Assembly (NCBI RefSeq): GCF_014696355.1
Contig: NZ_JACJQA010000007.1
Location: forward strand, 1-64,000
Direction: 5' to 3'
Length of the DNA stretch: 64,000 bases
Source: Pseudanabaena sp. FACHB-1998
Lineage (GTDB): Bacteria; Cyanobacteriota; Cyanobacteriia; Pseudanabaenales; Pseudanabaenaceae
The first letter of the stretch is position 1, and the number at the start of each line of letters is the position of its first letter. Shown here piece after piece: positions 12,543 through 20,619 of the stretch. A program made the translations under genes and the position numbers. The notes beneath the pieces are model-generated. The model did no database searches. It saw only the letters and a program-made list of their open reading frames with translations, and was not told where the DNA came from.

Positions 12543-12890
12543 ATGAAATTAGAGATTAGCGATTTAAGTAACGGTATTCGGCAGGCTAAGTTAATCGGGC
12601 GCATGGACATGAAAGGGACTCTGGAGATTGACAATGAGTTTGCTCTAAAAATTGGTAGTAGTAGTCAGCCAGTTGTAGTAGATATGTCAGAGGTAGAGTT
12701 TTTAGTTTCTTTGGGAATGCGTACTCTGATTTCCGCAGCTAGGGGCGTGAATAATCGAGGTAACAAAATGGTATTGCTTCAACCTCAGCCACTTGTCCGC
12801 GAAGCTCTAGAAACGGCAGGATTTTCTCAACTGATTCCTATGTTTGATGATTTAGACGAAGCTATTATTGCTTTAACCGCTCCCGCTTAA
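12543..12890 (+). CDS. STAS-domain anti-sigma factor antagonist
   Basis: A 115-residue single-domain STAS protein (RsbV/SpoIIAA type). The core reads KLIGRMDMKGTLEID, VVVDMSEVEFLVSLGMRTLISAARG, then a C-terminal helix ending FDDLDEAIIAL. The Ser of VSLGM occupies the position phosphorylated by RsbW-like kinases. It is the first gene of a three-gene partner-switching set: the kinase lies 75 bp downstream and the phosphatase further on, all in one direction. The unphosphorylated form would bind the kinase and release its target. Confidence 0.88.
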   Translation: MKLEISDLSNGIRQAKLIGRMDMKGTLEIDNEFALKIGSSSQPVVVDMSEVEFLVSLGMRTLISAARGVNNRGNKMVLLQPQPLVREALETAGFSQLIPMFDDLDEAIIALTAPA

Positions 12891-12965
12891 TCAGTGAATC
12901 ACCGCCGAACCTGTAACTGAGCTACTAACTAATTAAGTTGTACTTATCCTCCTCAATATAAGCTC

Positions 12966-13388
12966 ATGTCATACCAACTAACCTTAAAAAATCGGTTTGA
13001 AGACTTGGAGGTTTTGAGTAACTGGATTGGCGATCTATCTAAATTACTAGGTATTTCCCATAGAGGTACTTTTAGATTACAACTAGCCACAGAAGAAGCA
13101 GTCACTAATATTATTCAAAATGCTTATGAAAATATGGGTGAGCATGACATCTTTGTGGACTTGTTGAAGGAAGAAAATACTGTAACGGTATCTCTGCGCG
13201 ATCGCGGCTTTTTCTTCGATCCACTTGCTTACCCAGAAGCTCAATTGCCAAATAGCTTAGAAGCAGCTCAAGAAGGTGGGCTTGGTATTCATTTAATTCG
13301 CAATTATGCGGATGAGTTTCTCTATGAAAGGATTGATAATGAGAATATCCTGACATTAGCTATTAAAGATTTGGATGCAGTTGCATAG
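12966..13388 (+). CDS. anti-sigma regulatory factor, RsbW-like serine kinase
   Basis: A 140-residue stand-alone GHKL ATPase (HATPase_c_2). The N-box LATEEAVTNIIQNAYE is at about 41-56, then LRDRGFFFDP, and the G-box EGGLGIHLI near 103-111. Proteins of this kind phosphorylate a STAS partner on Ser and sequester a sigma factor or other target. Its position right after the STAS gene supports that pairing. No sigma factor gene is in the window, so the output target is unknown. A strong hairpin follows the gene. Confidence 0.88.
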   Translation: MSYQLTLKNRFEDLEVLSNWIGDLSKLLGISHRGTFRLQLATEEAVTNIIQNAYENMGEHDIFVDLLKEENTVTVSLRDRGFFFDPLAYPEAQLPNSLEAAQEGGLGIHLIRNYADEFLYERIDNENILTLAIKDLDAVA

Positions 13389-13889
13389 TTCAAGCTCAAT
13401 GCTTATTGAGCTAGCAATTTTCATGATGAAACAAATTTGGGAGTTTTTAGCGACTTTGGTACTAAAAACTCCCAAATTTGTCTTTTAAAGCCAGTCATAG
13501 GCTTAGCTTTTAAAAAATAAATTTACTTTAAGCTTTGATATAGCCTATTGATGCTTTGAGTGGTACAGAAATATTTTTGAAAGCGGTGCGAAGCAACGCT
13601 TTCAAAAATATTTTTGGGTTTCAAATAAGCGCAAAGCGCTGTATATCCTTTTTTAGGTTAGCTCTGAGTTTATGAGAGTGTGGTTGCATTTTTATAAATT
13701 AGTGTTGCCGTTTGGTTTCAGAAAGGAAATAGATAATAATAGTACAACCCAAAAGCTCAGAAGCAGATTGCGGTGCGAAGCGCCGCAATCTGCTTCTGAG
13801 GTAGGAAAACTTGCTTGCAATAAAAGACTTATTTCTGTAAGTCTGTGAGGCTATGAAGCAGTGTAAAGCACTGTAATTAAAACAATAAA
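13389..13889. other. hairpin-rich intergenic region
   Basis: A 501-bp space with no ORF. It contains the terminator at 13432-13480, a second hairpin (13570-13585 and 13597-13612, AATATTTTTGAAAGCG), and a third one (13756-13773 and 13783-13800, CTCAGAAGCAGATTGCGG) whose core resembles the family A stem. The promoter of the SpoIIE gene should lie in the last 90 bp. Confidence 0.55.
13432..13480. terminator. terminator after the RsbW-like gene
   Basis: Perfect 19-bp arms, 13432-13450 (CAAATTTGGGAGTTTTTAG) and 13462-13480, with an 11-nt loop, 44 bp after the stop codon. Confidence 0.7.
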
Positions 13890-15443
13890 ATGGTCAAAGC
13901 TATTCAAGATTTTAGTAGAGAAAAAAGGATGTATCTGAGGCAAGAATTAGCCTATGGGACATCTGTGGCAGTTGATCTGAGCATAAATGCTCAAACGGAG
14001 AGCTTTTTGCCCTTATCAAAAGGAATAGTGATTGATTCTTCTTTTGGGGGTTGCGGTATTCTCTGCGTTACATCGGAACCTATCCAAAAAGATACTCTTT
14101 GTCGGATTAAAATTGACAATCTGGAGCCGATTATTGTCAAGATTATTTGGGTAAAAATACTGGATGATAGTGTTGTCAAATTTGGGGTTACTTATGACTT
14201 TAATCCAGAGCTATTGCCTATAGATCAAGATCAATTATTAGACAGCGATCGCTCTGTCGTAATGGCAATTTTTTCTTGCTCTATTTTTAAGGGGGTTGAT
14301 ATTAAAACTATCGAATTATTATTACCTCAGTTTGAATTTGTAAAATTAAGAGATGGGGAAATTCTAATTACTCCAGGGCAAGAAAATCATAAATTATATT
14401 TGTTACTGTCAGGTAATTTACAAGTTTGCCTAGCTAATGTTAATGAGTTAGTTATTGATGTTAATTTAGGATTTATGATTTCCTCAGGGGAATGTATTGG
14501 TGAGATGTCTATTCTTGAGAATAAACCTGCTTCCGCCTATGTTGTTGCGGATGGCGATTGTCAAATTGTGGCAATTCAGGAAACTGTTTTTTGGGAAAGA
14601 CTAGTTACTATTCCTCAATTTGTGAAAAATTTACTTCAAGGGCTATCTAGTCGAATGCGAAGACATAATGAAATCGCTTTAGAAAAGCAATTATTTTTTG
14701 AGCTAATCAATAGGGATTTAAAGGCTGCTAGTAAAATTCAGTCTAATATTTTGCCTCAGATGCCAGTTTTCCCCAATCATCCGCGAGTGGATGTATTTGC
14801 AAAAGTTATTCCTGCTAAAGAGGTAGGGGGAGATTTCTTTGATTGTTTAGAGTTGGATGAGCGTCATATCTGTATTGCAGCTGGCGATGTTTCAGGGAAA
14901 GGTATTCCTGCTGCCTTATTCATGATTCGTGTAATTACTTTGTTGCGATTAATGATATCTAGACTTAATTCTCTGGACTCAATTTTTAGTTCTATCAATC
15001 AATATTTGTGTGAAAGCAACAAGGATTTTATGTTTGTGACCATGTTTGTCGGGATTTTTGATGTCAATGAGGGCAAGCTGATTTACGTCAATGGTGGGCA
15101 TAATCGACCTTTTTTAAAGCGTGGCGATCGCTCTGTAGAATTAATCAACGTCCCAAAGGGAATGCTACTCGGTATTTCGCAGCAAGCAAACTATGGGATA
15201 GCGGAGTTGACTCTAGAGCCTGAGGATACTTTGCTGGTTTACACAGACGGTGTAACTGAAGCAGAAAATGCACAACGGGAATTTTTTACAACCCAAAGAA
15301 CAGGTGAAGTGTTGGGTGAATTCCCCCCTCAAATCACTTCGCAGGAAATAGTTGAGAGACTGGAGAGTAATATTTTTGTGTTCTCTGGTAATGTTGCTCA
15401 GTCAGACGATATTACAATTCTTTCCTTACGATATTTGGGCTAG
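13890..15443 (+). CDS. PilZ-like / cNMP-binding / SpoIIE serine phosphatase
   Basis: A 517-residue multi-domain PP2C phosphatase (RsbU type). Residues about 10-115 look PilZ-like (KRMYLRQELAYGTSVAVDL, DSSFGGCGILC), a fold that can bind c-di-GMP. Residues about 130-250 are a cyclic-nucleotide-binding domain (REGD-like LRDGEILITPGQ, then GECIGEMSILENKPASAYV). A helix with LKAASKIQSNILPQ leads into SpoIIE (GGDFFDCLELD, AAGDVSGKGIPAALFM, YTDGVTEAEN) with the Asp metal ligands intact. It would dephosphorylate the STAS protein 1 kb upstream. The two input domains suggest that second messengers set the switch. The classic PilZ RxxxR is not clean, so that domain call is moderate. Confidence 0.85.
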   Translation: MVKAIQDFSREKRMYLRQELAYGTSVAVDLSINAQTESFLPLSKGIVIDSSFGGCGILCVTSEPIQKDTLCRIKIDNLEPIIVKIIWVKILDDSVVKFGVTYDFNPELLPIDQDQLLDSDRSVVMAIFSCSIFKGVDIKTIELLLPQFEFVKLRDGEILITPGQENHKLYLLLSGNLQVCLANVNELVIDVNLGFMISSGECIGEMSILENKPASAYVVADGDCQIVAIQETVFWERLVTIPQFVKNLLQGLSSRMRRHNEIALEKQLFFELINRDLKAASKIQSNILPQMPVFPNHPRVDVFAKVIPAKEVGGDFFDCLELDERHICIAAGDVSGKGIPAALFMIRVITLLRLMISRLNSLDSIFSSINQYLCESNKDFMFVTMFVGIFDVNEGKLIYVNGGHNRPFLKRGDRSVELINVPKGMLLGISQQANYGIAELTLEPEDTLLVYTDGVTEAENAQREFFTTQRTGEVLGEFPPQITSQEIVERLESNIFVFSGNVAQSDDITILSLRYLG

Positions 15444-15523: not shown

Positions 15524-15578
15524 CAACCCCAGAAGACGAGTTGCGGTGCGAAGCACCGCAACTCGTCTTCTGGGGTTG
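15524..15578. terminator. 26-bp-arm hairpin, probable terminator
   Basis: Arms 15524-15549 and 15553-15578 are perfectly complementary with loop GAA. The core TTGCGGTGC.GAA.GCACCGCAA resembles the family A stem, but the family A outer ends are absent. Confidence 0.65.
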
Positions 15579-15854: not shown

Positions 15855-17780
15855 ATGGAACTAATGCTGGAGTTTTTTGATTCTGGTTCATTTATCCCCC
15901 ACGGACATTGCTATCTATGGAATCCTTGGCTGGTATGGCTACATATTCTATCTGACCTGTTCATAGCGATCGCCTATTACTCAATTCCGATTGGACTACT
16001 CTATTTTATTCGCAAGCGCAAAGATTTACCTTTTCAGCGAATTTTTTTGTTGTTTGGTCTATTTATCATTTTTTGTGGAACTACCCACGTAATGGATATA
16101 TGGACACTTTGGCATCCTAGTTACTGGCTGTCAGGAGTGATTAAATCGCTCACTGCCATTATATCCATCTATACTGCGGCAAGTTTTATCCCCTTAATTC
16201 CTCAAGCTCTAGAACTTCCTAGCCCATCTCAATTAGTGGCGATGAATGAAGAACTTGCGAAAGAAATTCAAGAACGCAAGCAAGTAGAGATAGAACTTAC
16301 CCGTAGTCGAGATCTTAGGGAAGCAATTTATAACGAATCAACCGATGCTCTTTTTTTGGTCGATCCCATCAGCCTGCTGATTTTTGATTGCAATCAACGG
16401 GCTGTGGAAATGTTTGAAGCCAATAGCAAGTCAGAGTTAATCGGTATTGAGGTTCAGCCCCTTCAGAAGCAACAATTTACCGATGATGAGATTATCGCCA
16501 GAGTTGCAGATATGCAGAAATTCGGTTTTTGGACTAGTGAAATAGAATATGTCACTAGAAAAGGTAAGTCTTTTTGGGGTAGTATCGCCTCTAAGCCTAT
16601 TAATGTGGCGGGGAAAAATATTCATTTGGTGCGGGTTAAGGATATTAACGATCGCAAACTGACTGAAGAACGTATTCATAACCTGAATATTGAGTTAGAA
16701 GCGAAGGTTCAAGAACGCACCCTTGAGCTATCTCAAGCTAATGCTGAATTAGAGATAGAAGTTAATGAGCGCAAGCTTACAGAAGAACGCTTTGACTTAG
16801 TGCTTAAAAATTCACCCATCACAGTTTTCATGCAAGATCTGGATTTACGATACACTTGGATTTATAACCCCGCTTTAAATATTAATCCTGACGAAATAAT
16901 TGGCAAGAAGGATTTCGATCTCTTTTTAGTTCCAGAGGAAGCTCAAAAAATAAGTAATATCAAACAGCGAGTACTGACAAGCGGCGTGGGCGGGCGAGAA
17001 GAGGTATTTGTCACTGCTGAAGGTCAAAAGCGATATTTTGATTTGACAGTTGAACCCCATCACGATCACAATGGAGAAATTAATGGAATTGGCTGTGTGG
17101 CTCTCGATATTACTTGGCGCAAACAATCAGAAGCGGAATTAAGGGCTTCCTATGAGCGCGAAATTATTTTAATGAAAGAAGTTCATCATCGGGTGAAAAA
17201 TAATTTGCAAATTGTTTCAGGCTTGCTATATCTACAAGCTAGACAAGTCCAAGATCAGAAAATGCGCGAAATTCTCTATAGCAGCCGCGATCGCATTCAG
17301 TCCATGGCGCTACTCCATGAAAAGTTGTACCAATCAAAGAATATCGAAAATATTGATTTTATCGCTTATATCCAAAGCTTAACTCGAAATTTACGAAAGT
17401 CCTATGCATCTCAATCCATGGCGATTTCTTTGAATATTGATGTCGAGTCCATTAATGTGGATATGGATACAGCTATGTATTGCGGCTTGATTATTAACGA
17501 ATTAGTCTCTAATTGCTTTAAGTATGCCTTTCCTGAAGGTCAAACGGGGCAAATTATGATTGAGTTCGCTAAAAACGGTCAAGACAGCTATGAACTGATC
17601 GTCCGTGATGACGGTGTAGGGATGGCTGAAGAAATTGATCTCAAATATGCTAAGAACTTAGGATTACAACTAGTTTATTCTCTGGTTACTGAACAATTGA
17701 AAGGAGAGGTTTTATTAGAAAATTTTCATGGTACAGTTTTTAAAATTTCATTTAAAATTAAAAGCATTGTAGCGATTTAA
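15855..17780 (+). CDS. ethylene-receptor-like sensor histidine kinase
   Basis: A 641-residue membrane sensor kinase. The first 120 residues match the three-helix ethylene-binding domain of plant ETR1 and Synechocystis Slr1212: SDLFIAIAYYSIP with D34, and FCGTTH with C74 and H78. The C-H spacing is four and the D-to-C spacing is 40, as in ETR1 D25/C65/H69, the copper ligands and nearby Asp. Two PAS domains follow (about 150-270 and 310-430). Then comes a HisKA_2 box EVHHRVKNNLQ with the probable phospho-His H445, and an HATPase_c end (DDGVGM, NLGLQLV). Unlike Slr1212 I see no bilin GAF domain. The next gene starts 16 bp later and is a REC-kinase, so the two are probably one operon. Ethylene binding is inferred from the ligands only. 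Confidence 0.9.
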   Translation: MELMLEFFDSGSFIPHGHCYLWNPWLVWLHILSDLFIAIAYYSIPIGLLYFIRKRKDLPFQRIFLLFGLFIIFCGTTHVMDIWTLWHPSYWLSGVIKSLTAIISIYTAASFIPLIPQALELPSPSQLVAMNEELAKEIQERKQVEIELTRSRDLREAIYNESTDALFLVDPISLLIFDCNQRAVEMFEANSKSELIGIEVQPLQKQQFTDDEIIARVADMQKFGFWTSEIEYVTRKGKSFWGSIASKPINVAGKNIHLVRVKDINDRKLTEERIHNLNIELEAKVQERTLELSQANAELEIEVNERKLTEERFDLVLKNSPITVFMQDLDLRYTWIYNPALNINPDEIIGKKDFDLFLVPEEAQKISNIKQRVLTSGVGGREEVFVTAEGQKRYFDLTVEPHHDHNGEINGIGCVALDITWRKQSEAELRASYEREIILMKEVHHRVKNNLQIVSGLLYLQARQVQDQKMREILYSSRDRIQSMALLHEKLYQSKNIENIDFIAYIQSLTRNLRKSYASQSMAISLNIDVESINVDMDTAMYCGLIINELVSNCFKYAFPEGQTGQIMIEFAKNGQDSYELIVRDDGVGMAEEIDLKYAKNLGLQLVYSLVTEQLKGEVLLENFHGTVFKISFKIKSIVAI

Positions 17781-19530: not shown

Positions 19531-20619
19531 ATGAAGCGAATTTTAGTTATTGAAGATAATTCCCTAATTTTAGAAGATATTCAAGATATTTTATCCTTAA
19601 ATAATTTTGATGTAATTACTGCTCAAAATGGGATTATTGGCGTGCAAATTGCCAAGGCAGTAATTCCTGATTTGATTTTGTGCGATGTGATGATGCCAGA
19701 ATTAGACGGATTTGGAGTTTTAATAGCGTTACGTCAGAATTCTTTGACAGCAACAATTCCAGTCGTTTTTCTCACTGCCAAAACAACTCGCGAAGATATT
19801 CGCGAAGGCATGGAGTTGGGAGCCGATGATTATTTAACTAAACCATTTACGGCTCTAGAGTTATTAAAAACAATTTCGGCAAGAATTGAGAAACAAGAAG
19901 CCCTTAGGCAAGCAAGTACTGCGAAATTAGACAACTTGAGGCGCAATATAGCTTCCTATTTACCCCATGAACTCCTAACGCCTCTACATGGGATTATGGG
20001 AATGGCAGATTTGCTATCCAACTTCCATGACAATATGACCGCTAATGAATTGATCGAATCCATTGCGGTTATTCAAAATAGTAGCGATCGCCTAAATAGA
20101 TTAGTGCAGAATTTTATCATCTTTTCTGAGTTGGAAGAGAAAGCAGCAGGTTCGCAAACTTGGCAGGATTATCCTCAAAATAATGATACTGAATCGGTAA
20201 TATTGCTAGCTGCGCGTACCTGTGCAGAAAAGGCAAATAGGACTGAAGATTTAGAAATGAATTTGGAAAGTGTTCCCCTCAGAATTGCGTCTAAGCATCT
20301 CAACAAAGTAATCGAGGAACTAGTTGATAATGCTTTTAAGTTCTCTCCAGTGGATAGTGCTGTCCGATTGTTTAGTACGCTCGATCAGAAATTTTTAAGC
20401 TTATATATTTGCGATCGCGGGCGTGGGATGACCACCGAACAAATAGCTAATATTGGCGCATATATGCAGTTTGATCGCCAATATTATGAGCAGCAAGGGA
20501 ATGGATTGGGTTTAATCATATCTAAGCGAATTATCGAATTATACGGTGGTGAGTTATCAGTAGAAAGTATTATCGGCAGACAAACTTCTGTCTGCATCAA
20601 GTTCCCTATTGGGCATTAG
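19531..20619 (+). CDS. REC-histidine kinase hybrid
   Basis: A 362-residue protein. The receiver (VIEDN, D52 in LILCDVMMPELDG, TAKTT, TKPF) is followed by a helical linker, HisKA with H146 in SYLPHELLTPLHGIMG, and HATPase_c (IEELVDNAFKFSP, CDRGRGM, GNGLGLIIS). I place the start at ATG 19531, directly before the receiver strand RILVIEDN; a TTG 24 bp upstream would add only polar residues. It is separated from the upstream kinase by the MITE, which may have broken or modified a former operon. No output domain is present, so it probably passes phosphate to, or receives it from, the kinases upstream. Confidence 0.87.
   Translation: MKRILVIEDNSLILEDIQDILSLNNFDVITAQNGIIGVQIAKAVIPDLILCDVMMPELDGFGVLIALRQNSLTATIPVVFLTAKTTREDIREGMELGADDYLTKPFTALELLKTISARIEKQEALRQASTAKLDNLRRNIASYLPHELLTPLHGIMGMADLLSNFHDNMTANELIESIAVIQNSSDRLNRLVQNFIIFSELEEKAAGSQTWQDYPQNNDTESVILLAARTCAEKANRTEDLEMNLESVPLRIASKHLNKVIEELVDNAFKFSPVDSAVRLFSTLDQKFLSLYICDRGRGMTTEQIANIGAYMQFDRQYYEQQGNGLGLIISKRIIELYGGELSVESIIGRQTSVCIKFPIGH

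Follow-up and report, generated by a model that had tools for sequence, protein, structure and literature searches.

An ethylene-receptor-like histidine kinase of Pseudanabaena and its conserved pairing with a receiver-kinase gene in cyanobacteria

In the literature searched, detailed characterisation of bacterial ethylene receptors is limited to SynEtr1 and AzoEtr1; the former, which is cyanobacterial, mixes light and ethylene. SynEtr1 (Slr1212; also UirS or PixA) of Synechocystis PCC 6803 is, in the excerpts of its published description used here, a sensor kinase with an ethylene-binding domain (EBD) and a cyanobacteriochrome that also serves as a light receptor, and its partner is the response regulator Slr1213, whose receiver enhances transcription. 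AzoEtr1 of Azospirillum brasilense is an EBD-PAS-kinase that binds ethylene when expressed in yeast and has its own regulator, AzoRR-etr1 (excerpt of PMC11819568). Two further EBD kinases, GeiEtr1 and GeiEtr2 of Geitlerinema PCC 7105, carry all seven of the residues that are needed for ethylene binding in AtETR1 and are described, in the excerpt of PMC6682694, with GAF domains and with other neighbour genes than those found here. In the plant receptors a GAF domain lies between the EBD and the kinase (the excerpt of PMC6682694 covers ERS1 and ERS2), and signalling by ETR1 and ERS1 is mostly independent of histidine phosphorylation (excerpt of PMC11819568).

The locus compared with these systems lies in a window of 64,000 nucleotides, the whole stretch of DNA that was analysed, from contig NZ_JACJQA010000007.1 of Pseudanabaena sp. 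FACHB-1998 (the source genome). An intact open reading frame (ORF) in this window encodes an ethylene-receptor-like sensor histidine kinase, termed the receptor below, which resembles SynEtr1 in being a cyanobacterial EBD sensor kinase with a response regulator. Coordinates of the receptor, of the two genes that follow it and of two upstream repeats are collected in Table 1.

Table 1. Features of the receptor locus, in positions of the 64,000-nt window.
Feature	Position	Strand	Remarks
Receptor	15855..17780	+	EBD-PAS-PAS-HisKA_2-HATPase, 641 aa
Ethylene-binding domain ETR1_N	15930..16217	+	Pfam E 1.2e-42; three predicted membrane helices
D34 codon (= ETR1 D25)	15954..15956	+	D in 94/99 EBD sequences
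C74 codon (= ETR1 C65, copper ligand)	16074..16076	+	C in 98/99 EBD sequences
H78 codon (= ETR1 H69)	16086..16088	+	H in 99/99 EBD sequences
Second PAS domain, aa 318-423	16806..17123	+	Pfam
HisKA_2 domain	17178..17405	+	Pfam; H445 codon 17187-17189
Gene 2, REC-PAS-HisKA-HATPase, 505 aa	17796..19313	+	Pfam; predicted phosphoacceptor D55 at 17958-17960
Gene 3, REC-HisKA-HATPase, 362 aa from ATG	19531..20619	+	Pfam; TTG alternative start 19507
Perfect inverted repeat, 26-nt arms, 3-nt loop	15524..15578	.	Between phosphatase gene and cassette
Perfect hairpin, 18-nt arms, 3-nt loop	15629-15667		Between phosphatase gene and cassette

The architecture of the receptor was determined by comparison to Pfam. 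The ETR1_N family matched aa 26-121 at an E-value of 1.2e-42 (144.5 bits against a cut-off of 27), which excludes a chance match. Matches to PAS families cover two regions: PAS_9 matched twice, PAS_4 over the second domain, and PAS_8 at aa 157-208 slightly below its cut-off. The first PAS domain was placed at about aa 157-270 with its end set by eye. These are followed by HisKA_2 at aa 442-517 (E 7.3e-29), which has an H box, and by HATPase_c at aa 545-635, which has N and G1 boxes; H445, picked by its motif, is presumably the phosphoacceptor. None of the 11 Pfam families listed at E 0.01 was a GAF family, and the bilin-binding GAF of SynEtr1-type dual receptors was not found in the receptor at that threshold. 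A first-pass annotation of the same DNA had read the gene as an ethylene-receptor-like kinase with D34, C74 and H78 at ETR1 spacing, followed by two PAS domains and a HisKA_2 kinase without a GAF, and the Pfam matches and the residues given below agree with it on both counts.

Besides the PAS model TIGR00229, all NCBIfam matches to the receptor fell far below their cut-offs, including one to a MASE3-kinase model that overlaps the EBD (86 bits against 560). A phmmer search of PDB sequences returned four matches, all to transmitter or PAS regions and none to the EBD; the related transmitters (best E 1.1e-14) belong to blue-light HisKA_2-type kinases (PDB 4r3a and 6ph4), which carry a blue-light sensor where the receptor has its EBD.

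Within the EBD, D34, C74 and H78 are displaced by exactly +9 from ETR1 D25, C65 and H69, and the other four required residues of ETR1 are represented by Y41, I44, P45 and I71. In the residues of the EBD and their spacing, the receptor is like plant ETR1 and ERS1. In an AlphaFold2 model of residues 1-151 (monomer, alignment of 30, mean pLDDT 86.4), helices span 24-54, 61-86 and 90-111; the first holds D34, Y41, I44 and P45, the second I71, C74 and H78, and the third K97. Because a Foldseek search of this model against solved structures provided no usable structure match (106 matches, none of them reaching E 0.001), the model contributes helix positions only. The receptor thus has the N-terminal ETR1_N match, the seven residues and the three predicted membrane helices of an EBD sensor kinase. 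C65 of ETR1 is a copper ligand (excerpt of PMC6586836), and K97 of the receptor aligns with AzoEtr1 K98, which has been equated with ETR1 K91 (excerpt of PMC11819568).

The EBD was found to be 48% identical, over 128 aa and without gaps, to a 525-aa protein of A. brasilense that carries residues identical to the receptor's seven and is followed by a 135-aa receiver. Since the sizes of this protein and of its receiver equal those published for AzoEtr1 and its regulator, we infer that it is AzoEtr1, from a different strain. The likeness extends to an EBD with seven residues, a PAS domain, no GAF mentioned in the excerpt of the AzoEtr1 description, and a response-regulator gene directly downstream. 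Two differences stand against this: the receptor has two PAS domains where one has been published for AzoEtr1, and the AzoEtr1 partner is a lone 135-aa receiver, whereas here the receiver is fused to a PAS domain and a second kinase, as far as the published excerpt goes.

By homology there is good support for reading the protein as an ethylene receptor; it very probably senses ethylene by means of a plant-type copper site, with the binding of both copper and ethylene predicted from these residues. The ETR1 site is a Cu(I) site, and a sequence does not reveal which ligand is chosen, which would leave room for a domain that senses copper, or another small Cu(I) ligand such as CO or acetylene, instead of ethylene; related receptors, however, bind ethylene or act in ethylene responses (excerpts of PMC6682694 and PMC11819568), and we judge a non-ethylene ligand to be improbable. 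Copper supply need not hinder an ethylene receptor in this organism, as two copper-ATPase genes score above the NCBIfam cut-off in the source genome.

The receptor may be a dedicated ethylene sensor, as the first-pass annotation suggested, or the two PAS domains may add further inputs. PAS domains can bind flavin or haem, and such a cofactor would suit a dual receptor in which light or redox enters through a PAS domain in addition to ethylene; SynEtr1, by its published excerpts, is dual. Against this reading, the receptor has no Pfam GAF, and the NCBIfam LOV-kinase model matches it at aa 386-622, chiefly the transmitter, with 62 bits against a cut-off of 450. A receptor of this dual kind is judged rather unlikely.

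The distribution of the ethylene domain was determined in order to place this receptor. The source genome has this one ETR1_N match and no other at E 0.01. Counting that genome, ETR1_N was detected in 208 genomes out of 388 that sample its class (207 above the cut-off) and in 18 of the 38 genomes of the 'relatives' set. All seven binding residues occur in 88 of 99 collected EBD sequences, a collection that includes the receptor itself and some duplicates between sources; the named EBD loci were found through shared peptide patterns, one of which (MDIWTLWH) lies inside the EBD, so conservation there is biased. In a Pfam tally of 48 EBD proteins, no more than 4 had a GAF match; this tally leaves aside 4 of the 43 named loci (L072, L078, L079 and L084, whose ORFs are short or cut) as well as the short loci from the EBD searches. 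The absence of a bilin GAF, to which the earlier annotation had drawn attention, loses its weight beside this tally and beside AzoEtr1, an EBD-PAS-kinase that binds ethylene. Two proteins with a GGDEF motif, L024 (genome G013) and L027 (genome G034), gave partial and weaker ETR1_N matches of 42 and 38 bits (cut-off 27) and are possible distant relatives of the ethylene domain.

Gene 2 begins 15 nt downstream of the receptor and encodes a REC-PAS-HisKA-HATPase protein; the receptor thus leads straight into a REC-kinase gene, as had been noted. In four genomes of the genus (the source genome, G010, G013 and G016), genes for EBD-PAS-PAS-HisKA_2, REC-PAS-HisKA and REC-HisKA proteins are consecutive, gene 3 standing third in all four genomes with the full pair (source genome counted). 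Identities of the other three to the source are 73-81%, 73-83% and 60-74% for genes 1, 2 and 3, respectively. In the stretches compared, the remaining neighbours of this three-gene cassette in G010, G013 and G016 do not correspond in place to those of the source, and the differing flanks around a kept row indicate that the three genes behave as a unit.

Other members of the genus carry rearranged versions. Genome G014 has an EBD kinase followed by a REC-HisKA-REC protein, and in G291 an EBD-PAS region 71% identical to the source is fused to a HisKA-REC kinase. In G002, G004 and G021 the transmitter and receiver are adjacent without an EBD and the partner is longer; relative to the source, the transmitter stretch is 51-58% identical and the receiver-PAS part 67-70%. 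By Pfam, G021 has two PAS domains ahead of HisKA_2 and its partner is REC-PAS-PAS-HisKA-REC. To judge by these arrangements, the kinase-receiver core is subject to natural exchange of both sensor and output.

The receptor cassette is preceded by a set of partner-switching genes (STAS, RsbW-like and cNMP-binding/SpoIIE phosphatase, in series at 12543-15443), and it was considered whether it belongs to that pathway. The phosphatase gene, on the same strand as the receptor, ends at 15443, 0.4 kb upstream of it, and the end of the RsbW-like gene, at 13388, lies 2.5 kb upstream. The first-pass annotation had placed the set 2 kb from the receptor; the proximity is real, but it is incidental and the neighbours are not conserved. 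The partner-switching proteins have no match at E 1e-10 among the flanking genes compared around four other genus copies (L100-L103; the L103 stretch reaches only 1.3 kb upstream). At E 1e-80, a search of 25 further genomes of the genus gave no match to the phosphatase, and the two perfect hairpins of Table 1 separate the phosphatase gene from the cassette. The linkage was rejected on the first two of these grounds, and membership of the receptor in the partner-switching pathway is considered highly improbable. A 20-base arm of the 15524-15578 hairpin has 73 matches in the genome with two mismatches or fewer, both arms counted, against none for the reversed control; the matches often form facing pairs, and the hairpin is a repeated element of the source genome.

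In order to follow the pairing across the class, a model of gene 2 (A2) was built from eight genes, all adjoining EBD kinases, and searched in the 388 class genomes with 3 candidates scored per genome. The relatives examined are the 84 full-length matches down to 421 bits (of 85, G101:C177 was dropped as cut by a contig end); below this score only the partners in genomes G034 and G210 were looked at. An upstream ORF on the same strand was present for 81 of the 84, and 77 of these 81 ORFs are HisKA_2 kinases. An EBD is carried by 35 of the 77, from 31 genomes, a frequency that is biased because A2 derives from EBD neighbours only and the HisKA_2 profile from their partner kinases. For the remaining 7 of the 84, no HisKA_2 ORF was called upstream: 3 have no upstream ORF in the sequence examined, and in 4 another ORF, lacking HisKA_2, comes first.

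The 35 EBD pairs are closely spaced (-194 to +480 nt, and at most 23 nt in 31 of them). By Pfam, PAS_9 is present in every one of the 35 EBD kinases and GAF families in none at E 0.001, and all seven binding residues occur in 32 of the 34 paired EBDs that are uncut at the site. GAF (PF01590) was found in at least 20 of 36 non-EBD kinases paired with gene-2 relatives, this number being reached after six were set aside: L247, L256, L279 and L280, whose ORF reaches the end of the sequence, and L238 and L294, which have an EBD ORF further upstream.

A converse test started from the ethylene domain. A HisKA_2 transmitter was recognised in 11 of 96 EBD ORFs at loci found by the EBD, which is a lower bound, as many loci end 1.5 kb past the EBD and the HisKA_2 profile was made from paired kinases. 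The next gene after all 11 is headed by a receiver of the gene-2 type (9 REC-PAS-HisKA, 1 REC-HisKA-REC in G014, and 1 REC-PAS-GGDEF-EAL in G034). Four genomes outside the genus (G028, G037, G169 and G188), found by the EBD and chosen by H-box motif, have a REC-PAS-HisKA gene directly after the EBD kinase, with a gene 2 that is 32-36% identical to that of the source. The order of receptor and REC gene is thus kept across distant genomes, as in a two-component pair. Genome G210 (L297) has an EBD-PAS-HisKA_2 kinase followed by REC-PAS-GGDEF-EAL, like G034 (L296); the gene pairs of these two genomes possibly constitute a direct link from ethylene to c-di-GMP.

A quick tree of gene 2 was calculated from 77 proteins, with the 7 loci that had no HisKA_2 ORF called upstream left outside it. 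The EBD label needs 9 changes on this tree, 8 of them forced by starred branches, and at least 7 after the six rows are set aside (35 EBD, 36 other); among the rows, L230 (EBD) is itself cut inside the EBD, and L289 and L290 are identical. The source clade groups with mainly non-EBD rows (23 other, 5 EBD), away from most EBD pairs, and its nearest outside row is L256, whose partner is cut. These label changes and the placement of the source clade make it likely that the ethylene domain was acquired separately more than once, with gain and loss looking alike on the tree.

The same survey bears on a rival reading, in which the EBD serves chiefly to anchor the protein in the membrane or is the relic of a copper site, the true input comes through PAS, and ethylene has no relevance in the cell. 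The two PAS domains of the receptor, the kinase-receiver pair that lacks an EBD in three genus genomes and the many non-EBD sensors served by the gene-2 family (the 36 above, with the six cut or split cases set aside) would all agree with such a role. A mere anchor would hardly retain the seven residues and K97, which are intact in the receptor, or the seven that nearly all of the uncut paired EBDs have kept, and a domain of 48% identity binds ethylene; we consider the anchor or relic unlikely and retain the ethylene-binding reading.

The residues expected of phosphotransfer are intact on both sides of the pair. Receiver residues E10, D11, D55 and K106 are present in all 84 gene-2 relatives and T84 in 83, and H445, N553 and D585 are kept in all 35 paired EBD kinases. 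The phosphoryl group of the receptor is therefore likely to go to the gene-2 receiver, a reading to which the adjacency of the genes and the exchanged sensors also contribute. The kinase half of gene 2 is less regular. The usual Pro five residues past the HisKA His is present in 80 of 84 relatives; in gene 2 of the source genome and its three full-pair relatives this position of the HisKA motif (near aa 290-296) holds F, or L in one of the relatives, a replacement found nowhere else among the 84. In four other relatives the HisKA His is absent from the aligned column. An Asn stands in place of the G1-box Asp in 53 of the 84 relatives, of which 30 lie beside EBD kinases; the source gene 2 keeps Asp. 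Examples of the Asn form are L157, L160 and L231, with motifs such as NTGIEI. Given the replaced Pro, the missing His and the Asn G1 box, the second kinase may behave unusually; in much of the gene-2 family its ATP binding may be poor and its role may differ from that of a plain kinase.

With domains, residues, gene order and conservation of the pair as the observed base, it is probable that a copper-dependent, plant-type ethylene receptor forms the input of a two-kinase relay here. In the proposed mechanism, the three-helix N-terminal domain would, as a dimer, coordinate Cu(I) by C74 and H78, close to D34, and ethylene would be bound there. The signal, perhaps joined by a second input, would reach the HisKA_2 transmitter by way of the two PAS domains, and the transmitter would autophosphorylate at H445. 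Ethylene probably reduces transmitter activity, a direction assumed from published work in which ethylene is reported to decrease the kinase activity of AtETR1 and is suspected of doing so in SynEtr1 (excerpt of PMC11819568). The phosphoryl group would pass to D55 of the adjacent gene-2 receiver and switch the gene-2 protein, which would in turn act on more receivers, perhaps first on the REC-HisKA protein of gene 3.

A PAS-only ethylene-receptor kinase is not new, since AzoEtr1, which has PAS and binds ethylene, is already published. Bacterial ethylene receptors are already known; the sensor is an ordinary one, and what seems new is confined to the wiring behind it. No description of an EBD kinase paired with a REC-PAS-HisKA kinase was found in the openly licensed PMC literature searched, surveys of bacterial EBD architectures aside. 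The likely unit, from the gene arrangements above, is the ethylene-copper domain, HisKA_2 and the receiver of a second kinase. We put forward tentatively, as a possibility somewhat short of probable, that the pairs represent an undescribed and widespread class of ethylene pathway. In such a class, a fixed HisKA_2-receiver pair would have gained an EBD on more than one occasion among cyanobacteria, all 35 cases having PAS but no GAF domains; the target of the receiver would be a second histidine kinase (a c-di-GMP enzyme in some species) and not a transcription regulator, and the ethylene arm would be uncoupled from bilin light sensing.

For the question of what role ethylene plays in cyanobacteria, a bilin-free receptor and its conserved partner are a clean system. 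Since sensor and output have been exchanged in nature, it can also be tested which part sets the response. The gene pairs further suggest targets of the ethylene signal: the second kinase in this organism and, in at least two others, the turnover of c-di-GMP.
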